A stretch of DNA of 34,245 nt from an uncultured Mycoplasmatota bacterium (GTDB lineage: Bacteria > Bacillota_I > Bacilli_A > RF39 > UBA660). The notes beneath the pieces were generated by a model. That model made no database searches, had not been told where the DNA came from, and saw only the letters and a program-made list of their open reading frames with translations. Within the stretch, counting starts at the first letter, position 1, and every line of letters starts with the position of its first letter. Shown in pieces: positions 4,850 through 27,116 of the stretch. Position numbers and translations under genes: made by a program. The stretch spans positions 1-34,245 of the forward strand of contig CAMYYH010000008.1 of NCBI GenBank assembly GCA_947303405.1, in the 5' to 3' direction.

Positions 4850-4860
4850 CAAGTGCAACA
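4850..4860 (+). repeat. Left terminal inverted repeat of the IS30 element
   Basis: CAAGTGCAACA is an exact reverse complement of 5930-5940. With the next four bases it also folds on itself (CAAGTG, loop CAA, CACTTG), which gives a small hairpin at the left tip. Confidence 0.85.
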
Positions 4861-4899
4861 CTTGAATAATTTTAATCAAAAAAGTTCATATATTACTCA

Positions 4900-4908
4900 T
4901 GATATAAT
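4900..4908 (+). promoter_or_regulatory. Predicted extended -10 promoter of the IS30 transposase
   Basis: TGATATAAT is an extended -10 element inside the left end of the element. Transcription would start near 4915, ahead of the AAGGAG ribosome-binding site and the ATG at 4943. Confidence 0.55.
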
Positions 4909-4942
4909 GTTGGTGTCTAATCAAACATTAAGGAGTAAATAT

Positions 4943-5941
4943 ATGAACTATATACATCTTACCATAGAAGAACGTGCTTGTATAAGCAAATTTAAAGAAA
5001 TGAAAATGAGTTTAAGAGAAATGGCTAAACTTTTGAATAGGAATGTTTCTACCATTTCAAGAGAGTTGAAAAGGAATTCTTACAAAACAGGAATTCATTA
5101 TTCAGCGACAAGATACGTTCCAACTGATGCAAACAATAAATATAAAATGAGAAGACTTAAGTGCCATAGGAACTCTATTATTAATTGTTCAACAGTAGAA
5201 TATATAAAGAATAAAATAGAGTTACACTGGTCACCGGATCAAATAGTTAATAGAATTGATGAAAATAAACCATTAAAATTCCCATCGATATCGACCATTT
5301 ATAGATGGATTCATTATGGCTACATTCCTAAGGTTTCGATTATTCATTTAAGAAGAAAAGGTTCATTTAAAAGACCAGCTGAAACAAGAGGAAGATTTAA
5401 CTTAGGTAAAACAATTAAAAAAAGACCTAAAGAAGTATATAAAAGGAATACATTCGGTCATTGGGAAGCAGATACTGTTGTATCAGGTAAATTAGACAAC
5501 TATACATTAAAAAGTAAATATTGTTTTGTTTCACTTGCAGAAAGAAAGTCTAGACTATATTTAGTCAAATGGATTCCAGATAGAAAAGAAGAGACAGTAA
5601 CTAATGCAATTATTGAATTATTAAAGGATTTTCCAAATGAAGCCATTAAAACAATTACTTGTGACCGTGGGAAAGAATTTGCAGGTTGGAAACAGATAGA
5701 AGAAGAGCTAAATACAAATATGTATTTTGCAGATCCATATTGTGCATGGCAAAAAGGAACAAACGAAAACTCAAACGGACTATTAAGAGAGTTTTATCCG
5801 AAGCATATGGATTTATCTAAAACGAATGAAAAAGAAGTTCAAGATGTACTTAAACTTCTAAATAATAGACCAAGAAAATGTCTAGATTATAAAACACCAA
5901 ATGAAATATTTAATGAGTATTTAACAAACTGTTGCACTTGA
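4943..5941 (+). CDS. IS30-family transposase
   Basis: A 332-residue DDE transposase that cuts and joins the ends of the element. The N-terminus carries a helix-turn-helix (SLREMAKLLNRNVSTISREL), typical of IS30 proteins. The catalytic core shows the three acidic signatures in order: GHWEADTVV, then TCDRGKEF, then a Glu in NENSNGLLREFYPK. Length is normal for the family and the frame is intact, so it may be active. The start is ATG 4943 with AAGGAG seven bases upstream; the frame extends upstream to 4853, but that part lies in the inverted repeat and before the predicted promoter. The stop codon overlaps the right inverted repeat, and its last base comes from flanking DNA. Confidence 0.95.
   Translation: MNYIHLTIEERACISKFKEMKMSLREMAKLLNRNVSTISRELKRNSYKTGIHYSATRYVPTDANNKYKMRRLKCHRNSIINCSTVEYIKNKIELHWSPDQIVNRIDENKPLKFPSISTIYRWIHYGYIPKVSIIHLRRKGSFKRPAETRGRFNLGKTIKKRPKEVYKRNTFGHWEADTVVSGKLDNYTLKSKYCFVSLAERKSRLYLVKWIPDRKEETVTNAIIELLKDFPNEAIKTITCDRGKEFAGWKQIEEELNTNMYFADPYCAWQKGTNENSNGLLREFYPKHMDLSKTNEKEVQDVLKLLNNRPRKCLDYKTPNEIFNEYLTNCCT
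5930..5940 (+). repeat. Right terminal inverted repeat of the IS30 element
   Basis: TGTTGCACTTG is the exact reverse complement of 4850-4860. It overlaps the last codons of the transposase. Confidence 0.85.
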
Positions 5942-17728: not shown

Positions 17729-18484
17729 TCACTCATTGTTATCTTCTTCTAGTTTAGCATGTAATACCACTCTTTTGCTTCCATCTCCTATACAACTTGA
17801 TAGAGTTAGAATCTTATTATTGGTAGATATATCCACATTGTAGTTGTAGATAGAACGAGATTTTATAGTATTGAGGAATGTTTTATATTCACTATCACTC
17901 GAGAAAGTGGTTTTAATGTAATAATCTTCCGGAGTGATGGAATATGTCGAAAACACAATATACTTATAGGTATTATTCTCTGTTACTAAGGTTATAGTAT
18001 GGTTATCTTTATTTTCATACCAAGATTTATTAAGGGTATTTTTTAAGGAATCAAACATACTACCATCTTTTATATTATGACCATAAATGATTATGTTTTT
18101 ATCTAAACCATCTAGTTTATTTCGATAATCTACAAATATCCAACCGGCTACATTCCATTTCTTATCAAAGTTATGATTTAAATAGTAACTATTATCAGTT
18201 CCTTTTACAACTATATAATCTATATTAGTATTATTTACTTCTAGATAAGCTACTGTGTCTTTGTTTCTTTCTTTTAAAGATTTAAAATTTATGCTATATT
18301 CTTCTTTATTACCTGGAATTTCCTTTATAGTAATATTTTTTACTATACTTTCTTGTATCTTATTGTTAGCATTTAAGTGTATTTTTCTTGTAATAATCTT
18401 ATATGAAGAGTATATTACACCAAGTAAACTAATTATTATTATAGCTTTTATTACCCATGGTTTCAGTTTTCTCTTTGTTTTCAT
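17729..18484 (-). CDS. srtB: Class B sortase
   Basis: A 251-residue transpeptidase that cleaves sorting signals on secreted proteins and joins them to the cell wall. An N-terminal membrane anchor (VIKAIIIISLLGVIYSSY) is followed by the sortase barrel. The triad is present: His136 in YGHNIKDGSMF, Cys231 in TLSSC, and Arg238 in GSKRVVL. The GHNxxxGxMF signature and a long helical insertion before the last strands indicate class B. Directly upstream is a surface protein with an NPNTG sorting signal, its likely substrate. A hairpin lies in the 42-base gap, so the sortase may be expressed by readthrough. It starts behind AAGGAG. Confidence 0.93.
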   Translation of the reverse strand: MKTKRKLKPWVIKAIIIISLLGVIYSSYKIITRKIHLNANNKIQESIVKNITIKEIPGNKEEYSINFKSLKERNKDTVAYLEVNNTNIDYIVVKGTDNSYYLNHNFDKKWNVAGWIFVDYRNKLDGLDKNIIIYGHNIKDGSMFDSLKNTLNKSWYENKDNHTITLVTENNTYKYIVFSTYSITPEDYYIKTTFSSDSEYKTFLNTIKSRSIYNYNVDISTNNKILTLSSCIGDGSKRVVLHAKLEEDNNE

Positions 18485-18502
18485 ATTAGACTCCTTATGA
18501 TA

Positions 18503-18525
18503 AAAGACTAGCTATGCTAGTCTTT
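18503..18525 (-). terminator. Hairpin between surface protein and sortase genes (weak terminator or attenuator)
   Basis: AAAGACTAGC and GCTAGTCTTT form a perfect 10-bp stem with a 3-base loop. Only four T follow on the minus strand, so termination may be partial and set the ratio of substrate to sortase. Confidence 0.65.
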
Positions 18526-18526
18526 A

Positions 18527-20059
18527 TTAATTATTTGAATATTTCTTTTTATAGTAGATTATTCCACTTGATAGTCCTAGTATACTTACTGATAACATGA
18601 TTATACTAGATATAATATTATCACCAGTATTAGGGTTATTAGTGTTTGTTTGTTCTTCCTCTATATATTCACCTGTTACAGCATATACACTTAGGTGTGG
18701 TAATGTACCTATTAGATAATCTCCTTCAATTCTTACATCAACGAGATCTCCTACTTTAAAGTTATTATCTTCATCAACATAAACGAATTTAAACTTATTA
18801 TATTTTTTCATCGATTCAGTCATTTTAACTTTTATCTCAACAGAACCAGTATATTGTTGTCCACGATGATCTACTTCGATTACGAAAACATTTAATAAGT
18901 CTCCATAGTCTTTTGTAGCTTCAATTATTTGGTCTTTTATTTGTTTAAACTGTTCTTCAGTAACGCCAAGTTCAGATATTTGATCATTAGATAGTGTAAG
19001 AACATCGACTACTGTAAGACCATATTCTTCGTCTTCTTCGCCTTCAAAAGACACTGTGAATCCAGAACTAGTTGTTATTTCAACTTCATTATTCTTTTCA
19101 GAACCACTCCAAATATAGACAAAAGTTGTATCTTTATTTAATTCATAACCTAAATCTTTATCAATTTCGTAAATCTTACCATTTATTTTGATAGCTACTA
19201 GCGTTTGTCCTTCAGGAGGAATAACTCCTACTTCATCAATAAAGTTTTCGGTTACAATAAATGGAACATAACCAACTGAATCAGTTTCTATTCTAGTATG
19301 TCCTTCTTTATCCTTAGCACCATTAAAGTCTAGTACTACGTGATAACGAGGTTCTTCACCATTATCTGTTGTTTCAGGATTTTCTTTTGGATCTTCCCAT
19401 TTTGCATAAACAAATACATGTCTATCTTCATCAACATCAAAGTGATATTCATCAGTTAGTTCTTCATTCTCATACCATCCAGCGAATATTCTATCACCAT
19501 TCTTAATTTGATCTGATGATGGAGGTGGAGCGGGATTCCCACACACGAATTCAGCATCCGGTATTTCTTCACCACCATTCATGACGAAAGAAACTGTGCA
19601 GGTTCTTGGTTCGTCCGGATTATCGGGGTTATTGTTGATTGGCTCATCTTCAACCAAATCAAAGGTTGTAAAGTCTTGTTCAGGTTCAGTAATAGTTACT
19701 GTAAAGATATATTTTGATCCTGATTCTTCCTTAACAACATTAAAAGCCTTTCCACAATCATCTCCACAATAAGAAATGCGTGGAATATACTCTCCTTTTG
19801 GTGTTACTTCTAGAGTAACAATTAGTTTTCTTTCATCTACCATGTAAGTATCTTGCGCACTCGTCCATGGGAATTCGTTGTTTATAGTTATACTATCTAC
19901 TGTAAACTTGTCTTCCGCTTGGTTTTTAAATTCTAGTTGCATTCCTATGGATCCATTACCATAGTCTTGAGCATTTACTATTGCTGGAATATAACATGTA
20001 AATAGCATTACCAATAATACTAAAGCTGCTTTTAGTATATTAGTATTCTTTTTTGTCAT
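18527..20059 (-). CDS. Sortase-anchored surface protein with NPNTG signal and InlB-type repeat
   Basis: A 510-residue wall protein. It has a signal peptide (AALVLLVMLFTCYIPAIVNA), a first domain with a Cys pair (SYCGDDCG), and at about 150-215 a unit resembling the Listeria-Bacteroides (InlB B) repeat: CTVSFVMNGGEE, then IFAGWYENEEL and VYAKWED. Further domains look beta-rich and acidic. The C-terminus is a classical sorting signal: NPNTG, a hydrophobic stretch, and KKKYSNN. The adjacent class B sortase is the likely anchoring enzyme. The protein is strongly acidic, consistent with surface exposure. InlB-type repeats suggest adhesion, but the ligand is unknown. It starts at ATG 20059 behind GGAAAG. 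Confidence 0.88.
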   Translation of the reverse strand: MTKKNTNILKAALVLLVMLFTCYIPAIVNAQDYGNGSIGMQLEFKNQAEDKFTVDSITINNEFPWTSAQDTYMVDERKLIVTLEVTPKGEYIPRISYCGDDCGKAFNVVKEESGSKYIFTVTITEPEQDFTTFDLVEDEPINNNPDNPDEPRTCTVSFVMNGGEEIPDAEFVCGNPAPPPSSDQIKNGDRIFAGWYENEELTDEYHFDVDEDRHVFVYAKWEDPKENPETTDNGEEPRYHVVLDFNGAKDKEGHTRIETDSVGYVPFIVTENFIDEVGVIPPEGQTLVAIKINGKIYEIDKDLGYELNKDTTFVYIWSGSEKNNEVEITTSSGFTVSFEGEEDEEYGLTVVDVLTLSNDQISELGVTEEQFKQIKDQIIEATKDYGDLLNVFVIEVDHRGQQYTGSVEIKVKMTESMKKYNKFKFVYVDEDNNFKVGDLVDVRIEGDYLIGTLPHLSVYAVTGEYIEEEQTNTNNPNTGDNIISSIIMLSVSILGLSSGIIYYKKKYSNN

Positions 20060-21967: not shown

Positions 21968-21995
21968 TGAAAAAGAGGCCAAATTATTTGCCTCT
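21968..21995 (-). terminator. Rho-independent terminator of the HD phosphohydrolase gene
   Basis: AGAGGCAAA pairs with TTTGGCCTCT around one bulge, and five T follow on the minus strand. It overlaps the last codons of the gene at 21984 and closes the CYTH/HD cluster. Confidence 0.7.
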
Positions 21996-22868
21996 CTTTA
22001 AACAAAGTTGATTATCTTTTACTACTTCTCCTATTTTTATAATATAAGGTAGTATACGTCTTATAAAATTAAGCTTTATAGACTCTAAACTATTTTGTCT
22101 TTTGTCGTTGTCTTTCTTGCCTACGTTAGGATTACTAAATCCTAGAAGGGCTATAGTAGATTCTAAGTTCTCTAACTGATGTACTGATACATATTTATCG
22201 GCAACAGATACGACGTTACCTTCTGGGTACATACTTGGGCATAATGAAACTTCCAGTTTATCTATTTTACATCTTTGACAACTTTCATAGATTATAGCTA
22301 AAAGCTCAGGATTAATCTCTTTGATAGTTTCATAGTTATCTATTTCAAATTTATTCTCAAGAGAATCATCCAAACTAGCAACTGGAAGAATAAACATATG
22401 ATGGATAATCCCATCTAGTATTACTCTACTCTTAAATATGTCTATCTTACCATCTGGGGTTTTAAATAAGTGTTCATACAATTTACATGTATTAAGAGCT
22501 GCGGGAATAGGATGAACAAAACCATGTTTATGTAGAAAACTCTTTTTCTTTATACCAGTATTTTGCCATGGCCTAGTATACATATCGTGTAACATGGCTA
22601 TTAATAAAGCATATTCCATGTTTACATTTAAATTATACTTTTTAATAAGTATGTATGTTACAACTGTAACTTCCATTATATGTTCTCCAACAGTTATATT
22701 ACCATGATGGGGAAATTCGTCAGTAAGTCTTCTTTGGAATTCCTCATGGAAGAAGACATCCCCAATGATGGAATAGATAGCTTTAATGTCACTTTTTCTT
22801 AAATGATATTTAAGAAAGATGGGGTTACATTTTTCATTATAATATAATGACTTAACAGTTTTCTCCAT
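21984..22868 (-). CDS. HD-domain phosphohydrolase
   Basis: A 294-residue protein with the spaced His/Asp residues of an HD metal site: His in GEHIMEV, HD in AMLHDMYTRPW, His in HGFVHPIP, the pair in GIIHHMF, and a late Asp in VVSVADKYVS. HD proteins of this size hydrolyse phosphoester bonds in nucleotides or other small molecules; the substrate cannot be read from sequence. I chose ATG 22868 with GGAG upstream. The frame is open to 22952, but that stretch contains the predicted promoter. It lies about 100 bases downstream of the WG-repeat gene and may be partly independent of the CYTH operon. Confidence 0.85.
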   Translation of the reverse strand: MEKTVKSLYYNEKCNPIFLKYHLRKSDIKAIYSIIGDVFFHEEFQRRLTDEFPHHGNITVGEHIMEVTVVTYILIKKYNLNVNMEYALLIAMLHDMYTRPWQNTGIKKKSFLHKHGFVHPIPAALNTCKLYEHLFKTPDGKIDIFKSRVILDGIIHHMFILPVASLDDSLENKFEIDNYETIKEINPELLAIIYESCQRCKIDKLEVSLCPSMYPEGNVVSVADKYVSVHQLENLESTIALLGFSNPNVGKKDNDKRQNSLESIKLNFIRRILPYIIKIGEVVKDNQLCLKRGK

Positions 22869-22893
22869 ATTATCAACTCCAGGTATGTAAAAT

Positions 22894-22922
22894 ATACTAT
22901 TATATATAGAATAATATGTCAA
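22894..22922 (-). promoter_or_regulatory. Predicted promoter of the HD phosphohydrolase gene
   Basis: On the minus strand TTGACA (22917-22922) is 17 bases from TAGTAT (22894-22899). An overlapping TATAAT lies at 22899-22904, at a short 12-base spacing. Confidence 0.55.
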
Positions 22923-22968
22923 AAATAACATAATTTTAAATAGTTTTGCCAAAGTGTGGAGATTTGGC

Positions 22969-23763
22969 TTAGCTTATGCTTTGGGGGTGTAATGGTTGGT
23001 TTTGGAGTGTTCTTCCTACCCCATTTAGATTTCTTTTTGCTTCTTCTATGATATCCCCAATAAGTCCTTTTTTCATAGCCTTTTCTATAATAGTTTCAGG
23101 TGATAGCAAAATACCATTTTCAGATAATAGATAACCATTAGCCGATGCATAACCATCTTCATCAAACTCTGTGCCACTTGAAAAGTGGGTATAGGGATAA
23201 CTACTAACCTCTTCACCATCATATTCATAAAACTCTTTTAATCTTCCTTCTATTTCATAATAAGCTATAGTGCCAAACCTACCTCGTCCATCATATAACA
23301 TAGATAATGGTTTAACGCCCTTACTAAAAGCCCCTATGCCTTGCCATCCATCATCTTTAGTCCACGTTTTACCCGGTTGTTCCTCCACCATTTTACCTTT
23401 GCGATTAAGATGCTTAAATTCTTTATTTATCCATGAAACAGTTCCATCTTTACCAACCATTGCATAACCATATTCATTAAAATCAAAGGCAACATCAAAT
23501 CTAAATGGTAACAAAGAATTGTCAGCTTCTCTTACATATGCATACTCTCCGTTTACTGTTTTTACAACTTTAAATCCATTTATGAAATTGGCATTGCTAG
23601 CAACTATTTCATCTGATCTTTTTGGTCTACCAAATTCTGGTAATTGAACTGTAATTCTTGTTTCTTCTTGATTAATATCATAACTAATATATCTAATACC
23701 TTTAGTAATAAGAATTGCACTCACGCGTTTTATACTTTTAATTTCATTTACGATTCTATCCAT
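22969..23763 (-). CDS. WG-repeat-like protein in the CYTH operon
   Basis: A 264-residue cytosolic protein with no signal peptide. Its middle contains units such as FNEYGYAMVGKDGTVSWINK and FDEDGYASANGYLLSENG, the pattern of WG (KWG) repeats, which build beta-propeller or beta-sheet platforms. The N-terminus is an unrecognised strand-rich segment; the C-terminus is helical. WG proteins generally act as binding scaffolds and are often found near signalling or conflict-related genes. It begins 30 bases after the HD-CYTH gene behind GGAGAG and so belongs to the same transcript. A role as binding partner or ligand sensor for the HD-CYTH protein is inference. Confidence 0.7.
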   Translation of the reverse strand: MDRIVNEIKSIKRVSAILITKGIRYISYDINQEETRITVQLPEFGRPKRSDEIVASNANFINGFKVVKTVNGEYAYVREADNSLLPFRFDVAFDFNEYGYAMVGKDGTVSWINKEFKHLNRKGKMVEEQPGKTWTKDDGWQGIGAFSKGVKPLSMLYDGRGRFGTIAYYEIEGRLKEFYEYDGEEVSSYPYTHFSSGTEFDEDGYASANGYLLSENGILLSPETIIEKAMKKGLIGDIIEEAKRNLNGVGRTLQNQPLHPQSIS

Positions 23764-23792
23764 AATTTTCTCTCCTTCTGATTATTATTTTT

Positions 23793-26156
23793 TTAATTTA
23801 AACGAAGACTAGGTATATTATCACAAATCATTTTGTTATTACTGATGATTGTTGCTTTATTAGTCTTCCTATTAATATAAGTAAGAGTACCATCGTCAAT
23901 ATCTACTATTTCTATGTTGTCAATCTCTTCAAAGGGAATTTCTATACCATATGCTAAAAGTATGTTCATTTTTTTATATCTATCCCTATTAAGAGTTTGA
24001 TACCCATTATTATCTTTCCACCATCTTACCCATGCTTCACAAAGTTTTCTAGTATATAATTCTTTAATGGAAGATTGTTTTTTTTGTCTTTGATATAATT
24101 CTGCAGTATGATTTATCCCTCTTTCATATTTACTTTGAGTATTTATTTTTAAGTTAGGAAAGGCTTCGGAAATTATTTTATTTATTTCTGGAAGAATATT
24201 TCTATTAGTGGCAGCTCCTTTTGCCTCTATTTCAATCATTGTATCGTAGCCTTTTGTACCATTTAGTACATGATTGGTATATTCGCTTTCGTCAAATGAT
24301 AAGCAAACTACAACTCCATTTTTTTCTTGTTTTAATATAACATCCGTTCTTTTCGTATGAGAATTTAAAATAGGAAATCTTAGAATCTTATCGAATTCTA
24401 TATTTACTCCGGCATCAGCCATAGTTTGGCATAGAGTGTTAAAGTCTCCTCTCTTTAACGATTCTTCAATTTCACTCCTTGCCGAGTAGAGCTCACGCTC
24501 TCCAAGAGGTGTTTTATAAGTGCCTTTTATTTTTACTCTACCCGCTTGGTTGGCCTCTCTTATTCTTAATGATCCACCTGTTCTATAAAGGTCTAAAGCC
24601 TTTGTGTCATAATAATTATCATCATTTTCCTTTTCTATTCTTGATACAGCATTATGTCCCTTTTTTATCGCAGATAAATCACTAGCTTCATCTTCTTGTG
24701 ATGGTTCTTTGTATCCCCATTCATTTAATGAGCTTACAATTGCTTCGAGTAAGGTCTTCGGATCCACAGTTTCTTTCTCATCTGGGTCCAAAATATATTT
24801 TAGTTCGAATTCTACCCTATTTTCATCTAGTTCATTTAACATTTTTCTTATATCCCCTCCATATCTTTGAAGTTCTTCTGGTGTCAAACCCAACTCTAGC
24901 CTCAACAACTCGGGGCTGAAGAAGCAATGCGTTTGATTCAAAACTTCTTCTCTTCTTATTAAACTGCACTCAGCTATATCCATTATTTCTTTACCATCAC
25001 GAATTTTTAATTGTTGTTCTTTTTTATACAGTTTTGTTGTTGTATTGATTCTAGCAATGGATAGAGTATTATCCAGATTAATATCTCCAAATATTTCTCT
25101 TAGTTTTGATTTTATTTGTTCTGGAGATACACCTTTCTTTATCATGATATAGTCTTTTACGTTACTAAAATCACACAAGTAAGCCATAATAGGGTCTATT
25201 TTTTGATTTGCGAGAATTTTAAAAGACTCTTTAAAGTCTATGTCTTTCATTTTGAGGAAATCATCTAGAGTACTAGTGTTTGGATACATGGCTAGATTTT
25301 TAAAACTTGGAGAAACAGGAATTCCCCCTAAGCATGTGGAATTCTTATATCGTTCAATAATCTTAGCAAATATATAATCTCCTAGCATAGAGATAGAGCT
25401 CATGTAAACATCTCTATACATTTGAAATCTTTGAATTAAGACACTTTCTATACTAGATAGACCCATCCGATCAATTACTAGTTCATATTGGCCTCTACTG
25501 TTAACAACTACATTAACACTAGCTAAAATAGCTTTTAAATCAATATTTGATGGTTTTTTGGCATAGTAAGCATCTCTCTTTAAATAATCAATACGATCAG
25601 CATCCAATTGGTTGGATACTAGATTTTTTAATAATAGTGTAAAACTATCTTGTGGTGGTTTATTTTCGTCATTAATCTCAGCTATAAAACTGGCTATTTT
25701 ATTTACTTTTTCTTCGCCGAAGAACTTTGTTATCATTTTATTGATTTTTGTATCTCCCAGTAAGATTTCGGTGGTTCTTTTCTCATGGGAATAATCTGTT
25801 ACAAATTCTAAAGAGTGCGAAAATGGGCCATGTCCTACATCATGCAAAAGCATGGAACATAAGGCAACATTTTTATCATCTTCACTTAGTTCAATATTAA
25901 ACTCTTTTAAAATTTCCTCAAGTCTTTTGAGAAATAGCGACATTACATGAAAAGCACCTACACTGTGACTTAACCTATCATTATTTACTAATCCAGGAAA
26001 TTCTAACTGAGAAAAACCATTTTGCGAAATGTACTCTAATCTTCCTAATCCTTCTATGCATATTTTGGAAAAGGGATAAGGTACAATTATCTCCCCATAT
26101 ATTGGATCGTCCACTATTAGGGAATTGTTATTACCAGTTTCATATTTAAATGCCAT
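23793..26156 (-). CDS. HD phosphohydrolase (SAMHD1/YwfO type) fused to a CYTH domain
   Basis: A 787-residue fusion. The N-terminal ~440 residues follow the SAMHD1/YwfO-type dNTP triphosphohydrolase layout: DRLSHSVGAFHV (His64), LLHDVGHGPFSHSLE (His105, Asp106, His109) and NQLDADRIDYL. Residues about 448-680 are a CYTH (triphosphate tunnel) domain: VEFELK gives the ExExK signature (E449, E451, K453), YYDTKALDLY precedes GSLRIRE, RVKIKG supplies basic residues, RSEIEES the acidic strand, MIEIEAKG the next, and KYERG the end. The last ~105 residues are unrecognised. All catalytic-type residues seem present in both domains. It starts 3 bases after the XRE-CYTH stop, its AGGGGG ribosome-binding site lying in that gene's last codons. 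Confidence 0.85.
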   Translation of the reverse strand: MAFKYETGNNNSLIVDDPIYGEIIVPYPFSKICIEGLGRLEYISQNGFSQLEFPGLVNNDRLSHSVGAFHVMSLFLKRLEEILKEFNIELSEDDKNVALCSMLLHDVGHGPFSHSLEFVTDYSHEKRTTEILLGDTKINKMITKFFGEEKVNKIASFIAEINDENKPPQDSFTLLLKNLVSNQLDADRIDYLKRDAYYAKKPSNIDLKAILASVNVVVNSRGQYELVIDRMGLSSIESVLIQRFQMYRDVYMSSISMLGDYIFAKIIERYKNSTCLGGIPVSPSFKNLAMYPNTSTLDDFLKMKDIDFKESFKILANQKIDPIMAYLCDFSNVKDYIMIKKGVSPEQIKSKLREIFGDINLDNTLSIARINTTTKLYKKEQQLKIRDGKEIMDIAECSLIRREEVLNQTHCFFSPELLRLELGLTPEELQRYGGDIRKMLNELDENRVEFELKYILDPDEKETVDPKTLLEAIVSSLNEWGYKEPSQEDEASDLSAIKKGHNAVSRIEKENDDNYYDTKALDLYRTGGSLRIREANQAGRVKIKGTYKTPLGERELYSARSEIEESLKRGDFNTLCQTMADAGVNIEFDKILRFPILNSHTKRTDVILKQEKNGVVVCLSFDESEYTNHVLNGTKGYDTMIEIEAKGAATNRNILPEINKIISEAFPNLKINTQSKYERGINHTAELYQRQKKQSSIKELYTRKLCEAWVRWWKDNNGYQTLNRDRYKKMNILLAYGIEIPFEEIDNIEIVDIDDGTLTYINRKTNKATIISNNKMICDNIPSLRLN

Positions 26157-26159
26157 AAA

Positions 26160-26891
26160 CTACCCCCTAGTTTTCTCTATCATTAGTTGGGGATATCTTT
26201 TAGGTTCTATATTATTCAAATTTAAGCCTATATATTTAGCTTCTTTTATTAGTTCATCATATTCTTTAGAATAATCATCTATGGAATCTTTTACTTCAAT
26301 TTCTATAAAGTATCCTAAGTCTTCTACTTTATCTATAGATACTTCATATTTATTCTTATATGAATAGACTTTTCTTTCTTTGGTTATTTCTATAATCTTT
26401 TTTAAACCTATGAAACTAAATATCTTTTTTAGATTATCACCATTATCTACTTCGACTTCATATTCTTCAGAGTACATTTTATTACTATAATCTTTATAAG
26501 TTAATATTTTCTTATTGCCACTAGTTCTAATCCTTAGAGATTTATTATTGTCCATACAATTAGATTGATAATAAATATCTTGCTGATTACTATCTAATAG
26601 AAGTCCCCCCTTAGCTTTCATGTATTTATTTAAATTGTTATATTCTTCTTTAGTTAGTCTAACTTTAATTTCCATTTCAATATTATCTTTAAAGTCATCT
26701 CCATATATTATATAACTGGGGTTACACTCTAATACTTCTGATAATTTGACAACCATTTCTAAACTTGGTTCTGTTCTCCCCATTTCCCAACTTGAAATAG
26801 TTCTATCAGCCACATATAGCTTTGCTGCTAGTTCCTTTTGAGTTAGTCTTTTGTTTTGTCTAAGTTGACTAATCCTTTCACCATAATTCAT
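26160..26891 (-). CDS. XRE-family regulator fused to a CYTH domain
   Basis: A 243-residue fusion. Residues 3-57 are an XRE helix-turn-helix (RISQLRQNKRLTQKELAAKL then DRTISSWEMGRTEPS). From about residue 70 comes a CYTH domain: IEMEIKV (E72, E74, K76), DIYYQ, SLRIRTS, KKILTYKD, EEYEVEV and YFIEIEVKDS, matching class IV adenylate cyclase/thiamine triphosphatase-like proteins. The tunnel residues look intact, so it may sense or hydrolyse a triphosphate and change DNA binding in response (inference). I chose ATG 26891 with AAAGGAA upstream; the open frame to 26969 runs through the promoter and operator. It heads a tight operon with the HD-CYTH and WG genes. Confidence 0.85.
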   Translation of the reverse strand: MNYGERISQLRQNKRLTQKELAAKLYVADRTISSWEMGRTEPSLEMVVKLSEVLECNPSYIIYGDDFKDNIEMEIKVRLTKEEYNNLNKYMKAKGGLLLDSNQQDIYYQSNCMDNNKSLRIRTSGNKKILTYKDYSNKMYSEEYEVEVDNGDNLKKIFSFIGLKKIIEITKERKVYSYKNKYEVSIDKVEDLGYFIEIEVKDSIDDYSKEYDELIKEAKYIGLNLNNIEPKRYPQLMIEKTRG

Positions 26892-26919
26892 GTTTTCATT
26901 CCTTTCACAATTAAATGAT

Positions 26920-26948
26920 ATCATAATTACAAGGGCTCTATCTCTACA
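26920..26948 (-). promoter_or_regulatory. Predicted promoter of the CYTH operon
   Basis: On the minus strand TATGAT (26920-26925) lies 17 bases from TGTAGA (26943-26948). The -35 hexamer is poor and falls inside the proximal arm of the dyad at 26938-26962. Confidence 0.5.
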
Positions 26949-26962
26949 TTTTGTAGAGATAG
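26938..26962. promoter_or_regulatory. 25-bp inverted repeat, probable operator of the XRE-CYTH regulator
   Basis: Two perfect 11-base arms (CTATCTCTACA and TGTAGAGATAG) are separated by TTT. The dyad covers the -35 region of the operon that encodes an XRE repressor-like protein. There is no T run next to it, so it is not a terminator. Confidence 0.7.
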
Positions 26963-26975
26963 TATTCATAACAAT

Positions 26976-27003
26976 CGAAAAAAAACTAATCTTGCGATTA
27001 GTT
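26976..27003 (-). terminator. Rho-independent terminator downstream of tRNA-Met
   Basis: AACTAATC and GATTAGTT form an 8-bp stem with a 4-base loop, followed on the minus strand by a run of eight T. It isolates the CYTH operon from upstream transcription. Confidence 0.85.
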
Positions 27004-27012
27004 ATTTATAAA

Positions 27013-27089
27013 TGGTAGCGCCGGTGTGATTCGAACACACGACCTACCGGGTATGAACCGGTTGCTCTAGCCAACTGAGCTACAGCGCC
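27013..27089 (-). tRNA. tRNA-Met (CAT), elongator type
   Basis: A 77-base cloverleaf with encoded CCA. The acceptor arm starts GGCGCTG and pairs with CGGCGCT, allowing two G-U pairs. The D arm has AGTTGGCTA, the anticodon arm ACCGG-TTCATAC-CCGGT shows anticodon CAT, and the T arm has TTCGAAT between GTGTG and CACAC. The first pair is G-U, not the C-A mismatch of initiators, and the body resembles Bacillus elongator tRNA-Met. A lysidine-modified tRNA-Ile2 also has a CAT anticodon but is less likely. Confidence 0.95.
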
Positions 27090-27093
27090 ATGA

Positions 27094-27116
27094 ACTTAGT
27101 CAAAAAATGACTAAGT
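27094..27116. other. Hairpin between rseP and tRNA-Met
   Basis: ACTTAGTCA and TGACTAAGT form a 9-bp stem with a 5-base loop. No T run follows it on the minus strand, so it may be an RNA-processing or weak termination signal rather than a strong terminator. Confidence 0.4.

Follow-up and report, generated by a model that had tools for sequence, protein, structure and literature searches.

We find that the window, which is the whole stretch of DNA analysed here (34,245 nucleotides of contig CAMYYH010000008.1, GCA_947303405.1, with all coordinates below given as window positions), carries a two-gene unit on the reverse strand, in which a gene for an XRE-CYTH protein (26160-26891) is followed, after a gap of 3 bases, by a gene for an HD-CYTH fusion (23793-26156). 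The source assembly, of 1.1 Mb and 65% complete, belongs to a small-genome bacterium. An earlier note on this DNA had described an adjacent gene pair with a CYTH domain in each and a stop-to-start spacing of 3 bases; both points are confirmed, with Pfam CYTH matched above the curated cut-off in the two genes (1.7e-22 for XRE-CYTH and 4.3e-9 for HD-CYTH) and the domain residues intact. We propose a model, which is put forward tentatively and on the grounds of sequence, that the pair may be an autoregulated dNTP-hydrolase unit, where the HD domain would cut dNTPs, the CYTH domain joined to it would destroy the PPPi and XRE-CYTH would sense triphosphate. The features of the locus are as follows.

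27013-27089, reverse strand: tRNA-Met(cat), with downstream content that differs between congeners
26978-27003, reverse strand: terminator-like hairpin AACTAATC-GCAA-GATTAGTT plus T run, read by eye, parting the tRNA from the operon
26938-26962, no strand assigned: operator dyad CTATCTCTACATTTTGTAGAGATAG
26915-26923, reverse strand: extended -10 TGATATCAT, 21 bp past the dyad core, without a -35 box
26160-26891, reverse strand: XRE-CYTH regulator, 243 amino acids, Pfam HTH_3 and CYTH
23793-26156, reverse strand: HD-CYTH fusion enzyme (predicted), 787 amino acids, Pfam HD and CYTH
24810-26156, reverse strand: EF1143/SAMHD1-type dNTPase part of HD-CYTH, residues 1-449, with R61, H64, H105, D106, H109, H114, H124 and D187
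24087-24818, reverse strand: CYTH part of HD-CYTH, about residues 447-690, with E449xE451xK453, R531, R533, K544, E562, E564, E642, E644 and R679
22969-23763, reverse strand: third gene, 264 amino acids, with weak WG-repeat similarity, not conserved as a partner
21984-22868, reverse strand: fourth gene, 294 amino acids, a divergent HD protein with a possible promoter of its own at 22894-22922
21970-21999, reverse strand: terminator hairpin at the end of the fourth gene (-12.3 kcal/mol, z -2.8)

The HD domain of HD-CYTH passes the curated Pfam cut-off (1.7e-7), as its CYTH domain does, and the HD half matches EF1143 (1.1e-25), an HD dNTPase of COG1078 (YwfO) in the SAMHD1 superfamily. The metal ligands of EF1143, which are H66, H110, D111 and D183 (PMC8177086), align with H64, H105, D106 and D187 of HD-CYTH, and R63, H114, H119 and H129 align with R61, H109, H114 and H124, with the metal and catalytic residues being invariant in eight homologs, six from the window's family and two from distant Clostridia. 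The likeness extends to the fold, because residues 9-448 of the AlphaFold model superpose on the entire EF1143 chain (Z 36.2, 2.7 Å, 399 residues, for a chain of 436), which bears out the earlier assignment of a SAMHD1-type HD half. Since the EF1143 chain is covered as a whole and ends where the CYTH part begins, the CYTH domain is appended behind a complete dNTPase. The dNTPases of the SAMHD1/EF1143 fold release triphosphate from dNTPs (PMC7045340), and the HD half, as predicted from its sequence, should cleave dNTPs to nucleoside and PPPi. The substrate could also be a nucleotide other than a dNTP.

In the CYTH half of HD-CYTH, the ExExK motif, the RxR strand and the pairs E562/E564 and E642/E644 are invariant among the homologs of the window's family, and glutamates at matching positions hold two metals in the TTM sites of ygiF and AtTTM3 (PMC4641920). 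The ExExK motif and the basic and acidic strand residues are common to both window genes and to the CYTH/TTM proteins SaTTM, ygiF and BH2851, the last of which, from Bacillus, is the nearest solved relative of this CYTH half by profile comparison (1.9e-4). CYTH enzymes hydrolyse PPPi (PMC3440374). In the HD-CYTH model, strands are present in the CYTH region at modest confidence (block pLDDT about 44-84), and the two structure-match lists obtained with the model are filled by HD matches, with the CYTH fold not among them. The last 98 or so residues (23793-24086, reverse strand) find no counterpart, the tails of the homologs being short. Most simply, the fusion can be read as a dNTPase that clears away its own by-product, and in second place as a dNTPase gated by triphosphate. 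The PPPi-cleaving role is a prediction, and the CYTH half could be allosteric instead of catalytic. It is noted that the two halves also occur apart, with the HD part bearing another C-terminus in L049:2710-4044 (G236) and stand-alone CYTH genes near to that of HD-CYTH in L031:2947-3690 (G050) and L048:7796-8464 (G316).

The XRE-CYTH protein matches Pfam HTH_3 (2.7e-15) in addition to CYTH. From the sequence, its start codon is taken to be the ATG at 26891, which has a ribosome-binding site in front, and the starts at 26962 and 26969 are rejected in favour of it. Its single-sequence structure model, with a pLDDT of 33, is useless for the fold. The protein passes the NCBIfam model TIGR00318 cyaB (86 against a cut-off of 58), which would fit the proposal of a pair that makes and reads cAMP, with class IV adenylate cyclases in both CYTH domains. 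By contrast, the solved protein nearest to it by profile comparison is the archaeal SaTTM, at 96 bits as against 38 bits for CyaB, and SaTTM is a triphosphatase that makes no cyclic nucleotide (PMC8233210). The label 'class IV adenylate cyclase' given by NCBIfam is thus probably misleading, and the class IV cyclase named in the earlier note is disfavoured. Moreover, BH2851, to which the CYTH of HD-CYTH is nearest, lies in a cluster that includes a member unable to make cAMP (PMC8233210). On this balance we consider the cAMP proposal very improbable.

We now turn to the promoter of XRE-CYTH, where the operator-like dyad that had been ascribed to the operon is upheld by its conservation. The dyad has perfect arms of 11 bp, CTATCTCTACA-TTT-TGTAGAGATAG, with the core TCTACAAAATGTAGA at 26943-26957. 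The 17-bp core, CTCTACAAAATGTAGAG, recurs with 0-3 mismatches in XRE-CYTH genes of different genera, namely in 16 of the 20 compared, where it lies 43-51 bp ahead of the start codon, while shuffled sequences give a best match with about 6.7 mismatches and a core with three mismatches or fewer would be expected by chance 0.18 times in the window. In all 16 genomes having the dyad, a TG-extended -10 comes 21-22 bp past it, and a good -35 box is absent from the 16 promoters (mean best match 2.7 of 6). In the window's genome there is one exact copy of the site. Because the dyad is conserved in the gene's own promoter and has no second exact copy in the genome, XRE-CYTH is very probably its own regulator and that of whatever is joined to it. 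Two other operator-like sites with 1-2 mismatches were found in the genome, one of them within a gene; such sites are fewer than in the reversed-pattern control, and a wider regulon is rejected.

With the hexamer taken as -12 to -7, the centre of the dyad lies at -42 or -43. A centre near -42 is the position of a class II activator. It is from this position, together with the extended -10 and the missing -35 box, that activation is favoured over repression, so that positive autoregulation appears the better reading of the site, although position by itself does not tell an activator from a repressor and repression is a lesser possibility. The earlier suggestion that the regulator releases the operon, i.e., derepression, is by the same features unsupported. 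The same arrangement, an XRE protein whose own promoter has a site at about -42, is found in XRE autoactivators such as lambda CI at PRM. Lambda CI has the usual C-terminal domain, whereas XRE-CYTH has a CYTH domain of the ligand-binding type and its promoter is of the extended -10 kind.

Based on these features, the proposed pathway can be described as follows. The HD half would convert a dNTP to deoxynucleoside and PPPi, and the CYTH half would then convert PPPi to PPi and Pi, pulling the reaction forward and clearing the by-product. The CYTH domain of XRE-CYTH would bind triphosphate, either PPPi or a nucleotide, and set the activity of the promoter, with XRE-CYTH most probably activating from a position immediately ahead of the extended -10. 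Where XRE-CYTH is encoded alone, its own CYTH domain might be both the sensor and the enzyme, giving a self-regulating enzyme. The cellular role would be an accessory control of the dNTP pool, with a phage-triggered role being possible. A narrower version, which we regard as having a limited chance of being correct, is that the operon responds to PPPi: XRE-CYTH would be a triphosphate-tunnel sensor (for PPPi or NTP) beside a two-step HD-CYTH enzyme, so that the product, the sensor and the scavenger would all concern the same triphosphate.

The unit is rare and patchily distributed. Of the 386 genomes of the family, about 7 have the HD-CYTH fusion (G000, which is the window's genome, G369, G108, G291, G263, G110 and G046, the last counted although its gene is cut by the contig end), at varied positions, and about 23 have XRE-CYTH, mostly alone. 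No fusion was found outside the window's family in 395 genomes drawn from the class; in the phylum sample, the matches listed from outside the family are HD-only proteins of about 400-470 amino acids; and two distant HD-CYTH homologs occur in Clostridia contigs. Most of the genes of both kinds stand single among ordinary genes. The two genes might then be chance neighbours, namely independent accessory genes with separate work such as nucleotide sanitation, as could be expected where each gene is usually alone and where genomes with HD-CYTH only have no operator. The numbers speak against this, in that genomes with both would be expected about 0.4 times (7 x 23 / 386) and two are observed, with the genes adjacent in both: in the window's genome with the 3-bp gap and in G108, of another genus, with an 11-bp overlap. 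The paired XRE-CYTH proteins are moreover sisters, forming a clade with 100/100 support, and an analogous operon of XRE-CYTH with AAA-CYTH exists in G394. The neighbourhood survey called for in the earlier note shows the pair to recur, and with CYTH matched in both genes neither of the outcomes that the note named as refuting its proposal was obtained. We thus consider chance neighbourhood rather unlikely. The other HD-CYTH genes have neither an adjoining XRE-CYTH nor an operator site, from which it follows that HD-CYTH can do without the regulator, a point against the proposed unit.

Some further arrangements of XRE-CYTH are noted here. In G394 (L097:2171-4001) the XRE-CYTH gene, preceded by a perfect 15-bp operator core, overlaps by 14 bp the gene of an AAA_28 P-loop protein, and this protein has a C-terminal CYTH-like region below threshold (20.3 bits). 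Divergent XRE-CYTH genes directly precede a gene family of about 190-220 amino acids ('MKKSELI.L+...'), found at L094:7341-7967, L096:5488-6153, L098:3797-4357 and L100:2695-3255, of which the two members scanned have no Pfam match.

As to the surroundings, the hairpin at 26978-27003, with an 8-bp stem and a T run between tRNA-Met and the operon, agrees with the insulating upstream terminator described before; it is a by-eye reading, unlisted by the terminator scanner because of low G+C. Each of the 14 other genomes searched from the same genus has the gene rseP, and in 8 of 10 fetched stretches from the genus tRNA-Met lies downstream of that gene, usually close, with the following genes differing each time; no relatives of the operon genes were found in the ten stretches. 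It is because the content after tRNA-Met differs and the operon genes are without relatives in these stretches that we place the operon in a variable accessory spot. The same variable region near rseP, with other genes in each genome, is seen on comparing window positions 26160-27100 with L236-L245. No tRNA-derived attachment repeat was seen when looked for at the locus. Read by eye, the window also has an IS30-like transposase gene (4853-5941, forward strand) and a sortase-like gene beside a surface protein with a C-terminal sorting-type end (17729-20059, reverse strand), both of the latter having relatives in G014.

Such a setting raises the possibility of an anti-phage system, in which HD-CYTH would be the effector that depletes dNTPs, in the manner of bacterial dGTPases or of CloA in Clover, and XRE-CYTH would control it in answer to the nucleotide changes of infection. 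The SAMHD1-type fold, the patchy distribution and the variable site after tRNA-Met are consistent with this, and so is the precedent of Clover (PMC12265719), in which a nucleotide-based controller accompanies the dNTPase. Two homologs point the same way: the distant one in L104 has a dGTPase and a fragment of AbiH for neighbours, and after the one in G046 comes a HerA ATPase that is a remote relative of anti-phage HerA (163 bits, where the cut-off is 800). However, no recognised defence genes adjoin the operon in the window, HD-CYTH has weak matches to PADLOC (18 bits) and to the NCBIfam anti-phage dGTPase model (17 bits against a cut-off of 400) and most homologs are single among ordinary genes, so that the defence setting envisaged in the earlier note is unsupported in the window. 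Furthermore, the full-length fusion is absent from the viral, phage and plasmid sets searched. With HD-CYTH alone as the query, close-relative scans over viral contigs and genome contigs gave nothing, as did a first profile scan of viral contigs; a second such scan yielded proteins with an HD domain in which no CYTH end could be recognised; the phage-record matches to the HD half are unannotated records with coverage of 40% or less; and matches of XRE-CYTH to viral and plasmid sequences are mostly to the HTH part, with no full-length match. We hold the anti-phage role to be doubtful. For the record, in L104:8466-12043 (UBA4916, Clostridia) HD-CYTH lies 17 bp behind the dGTPase gene (TIGR01353, 243 bits), a linkage that also speaks for the dNTP-hydrolase reading, with the AbiH fragment downstream and a UvrD-like helicase nearby, and HerA-like ATPases are next to HD-CYTH in L030:1-3778 (G046) and near XRE-CYTH in L087:194-3227 (G206).

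Downstream of HD-CYTH, after 29 bases, comes the third gene, which had been taken for a WG-repeat scaffold of the operon. It has a single WG stretch below threshold (PF14903, E 0.007, 16.8 bits against a cut-off of 25.6) and is no fixed member of the module. The fourth co-oriented gene, which the earlier note missed, has an HD match of 0.0022 (18.7 bits against a cut-off of 22); it is a possible member of the operon, ending in a hairpin terminator but having a promoter-like sequence of its own. Both genes were dropped as parts of the core unit, their homologs lying elsewhere.

With regard to known systems, the closest working parallel to the dNTP-hydrolase unit that we prefer is Clover, where, as proposed here, two genes unite a dNTPase (CloA) with a nucleotide-linked controller (CloB), although the controller is of another kind: a Pol-beta nucleotidyltransferase in Clover, of which the domain scan found none in the window's operon, and in the window a CYTH protein of predicted DNA-binding type. 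The large CYTH clusters carry CHAD or kinase-type domains, which are the only partners named among the ten large clusters of the CYTH network study (PMC8233210), whereas the CYTH domains of the window are joined to XRE or HD. In our literature search no paper describing an HD-CYTH or XRE-CYTH protein was found, an older mention being possible, nor any regulator of inorganic triphosphate. What appears new, at the level of sequence, is thus the union of known domains together with a well-supported autoregulatory site.

Finally, we note that SAMHD1-type dNTPases generate PPPi and CYTH enzymes break it down, and that only a minority of CYTH proteins have an assigned purpose. A gene in which nature has joined the two activities, with a regulator in front that itself bears a CYTH domain, would allow such a purpose to be addressed through a pair of proteins and a single short DNA site.
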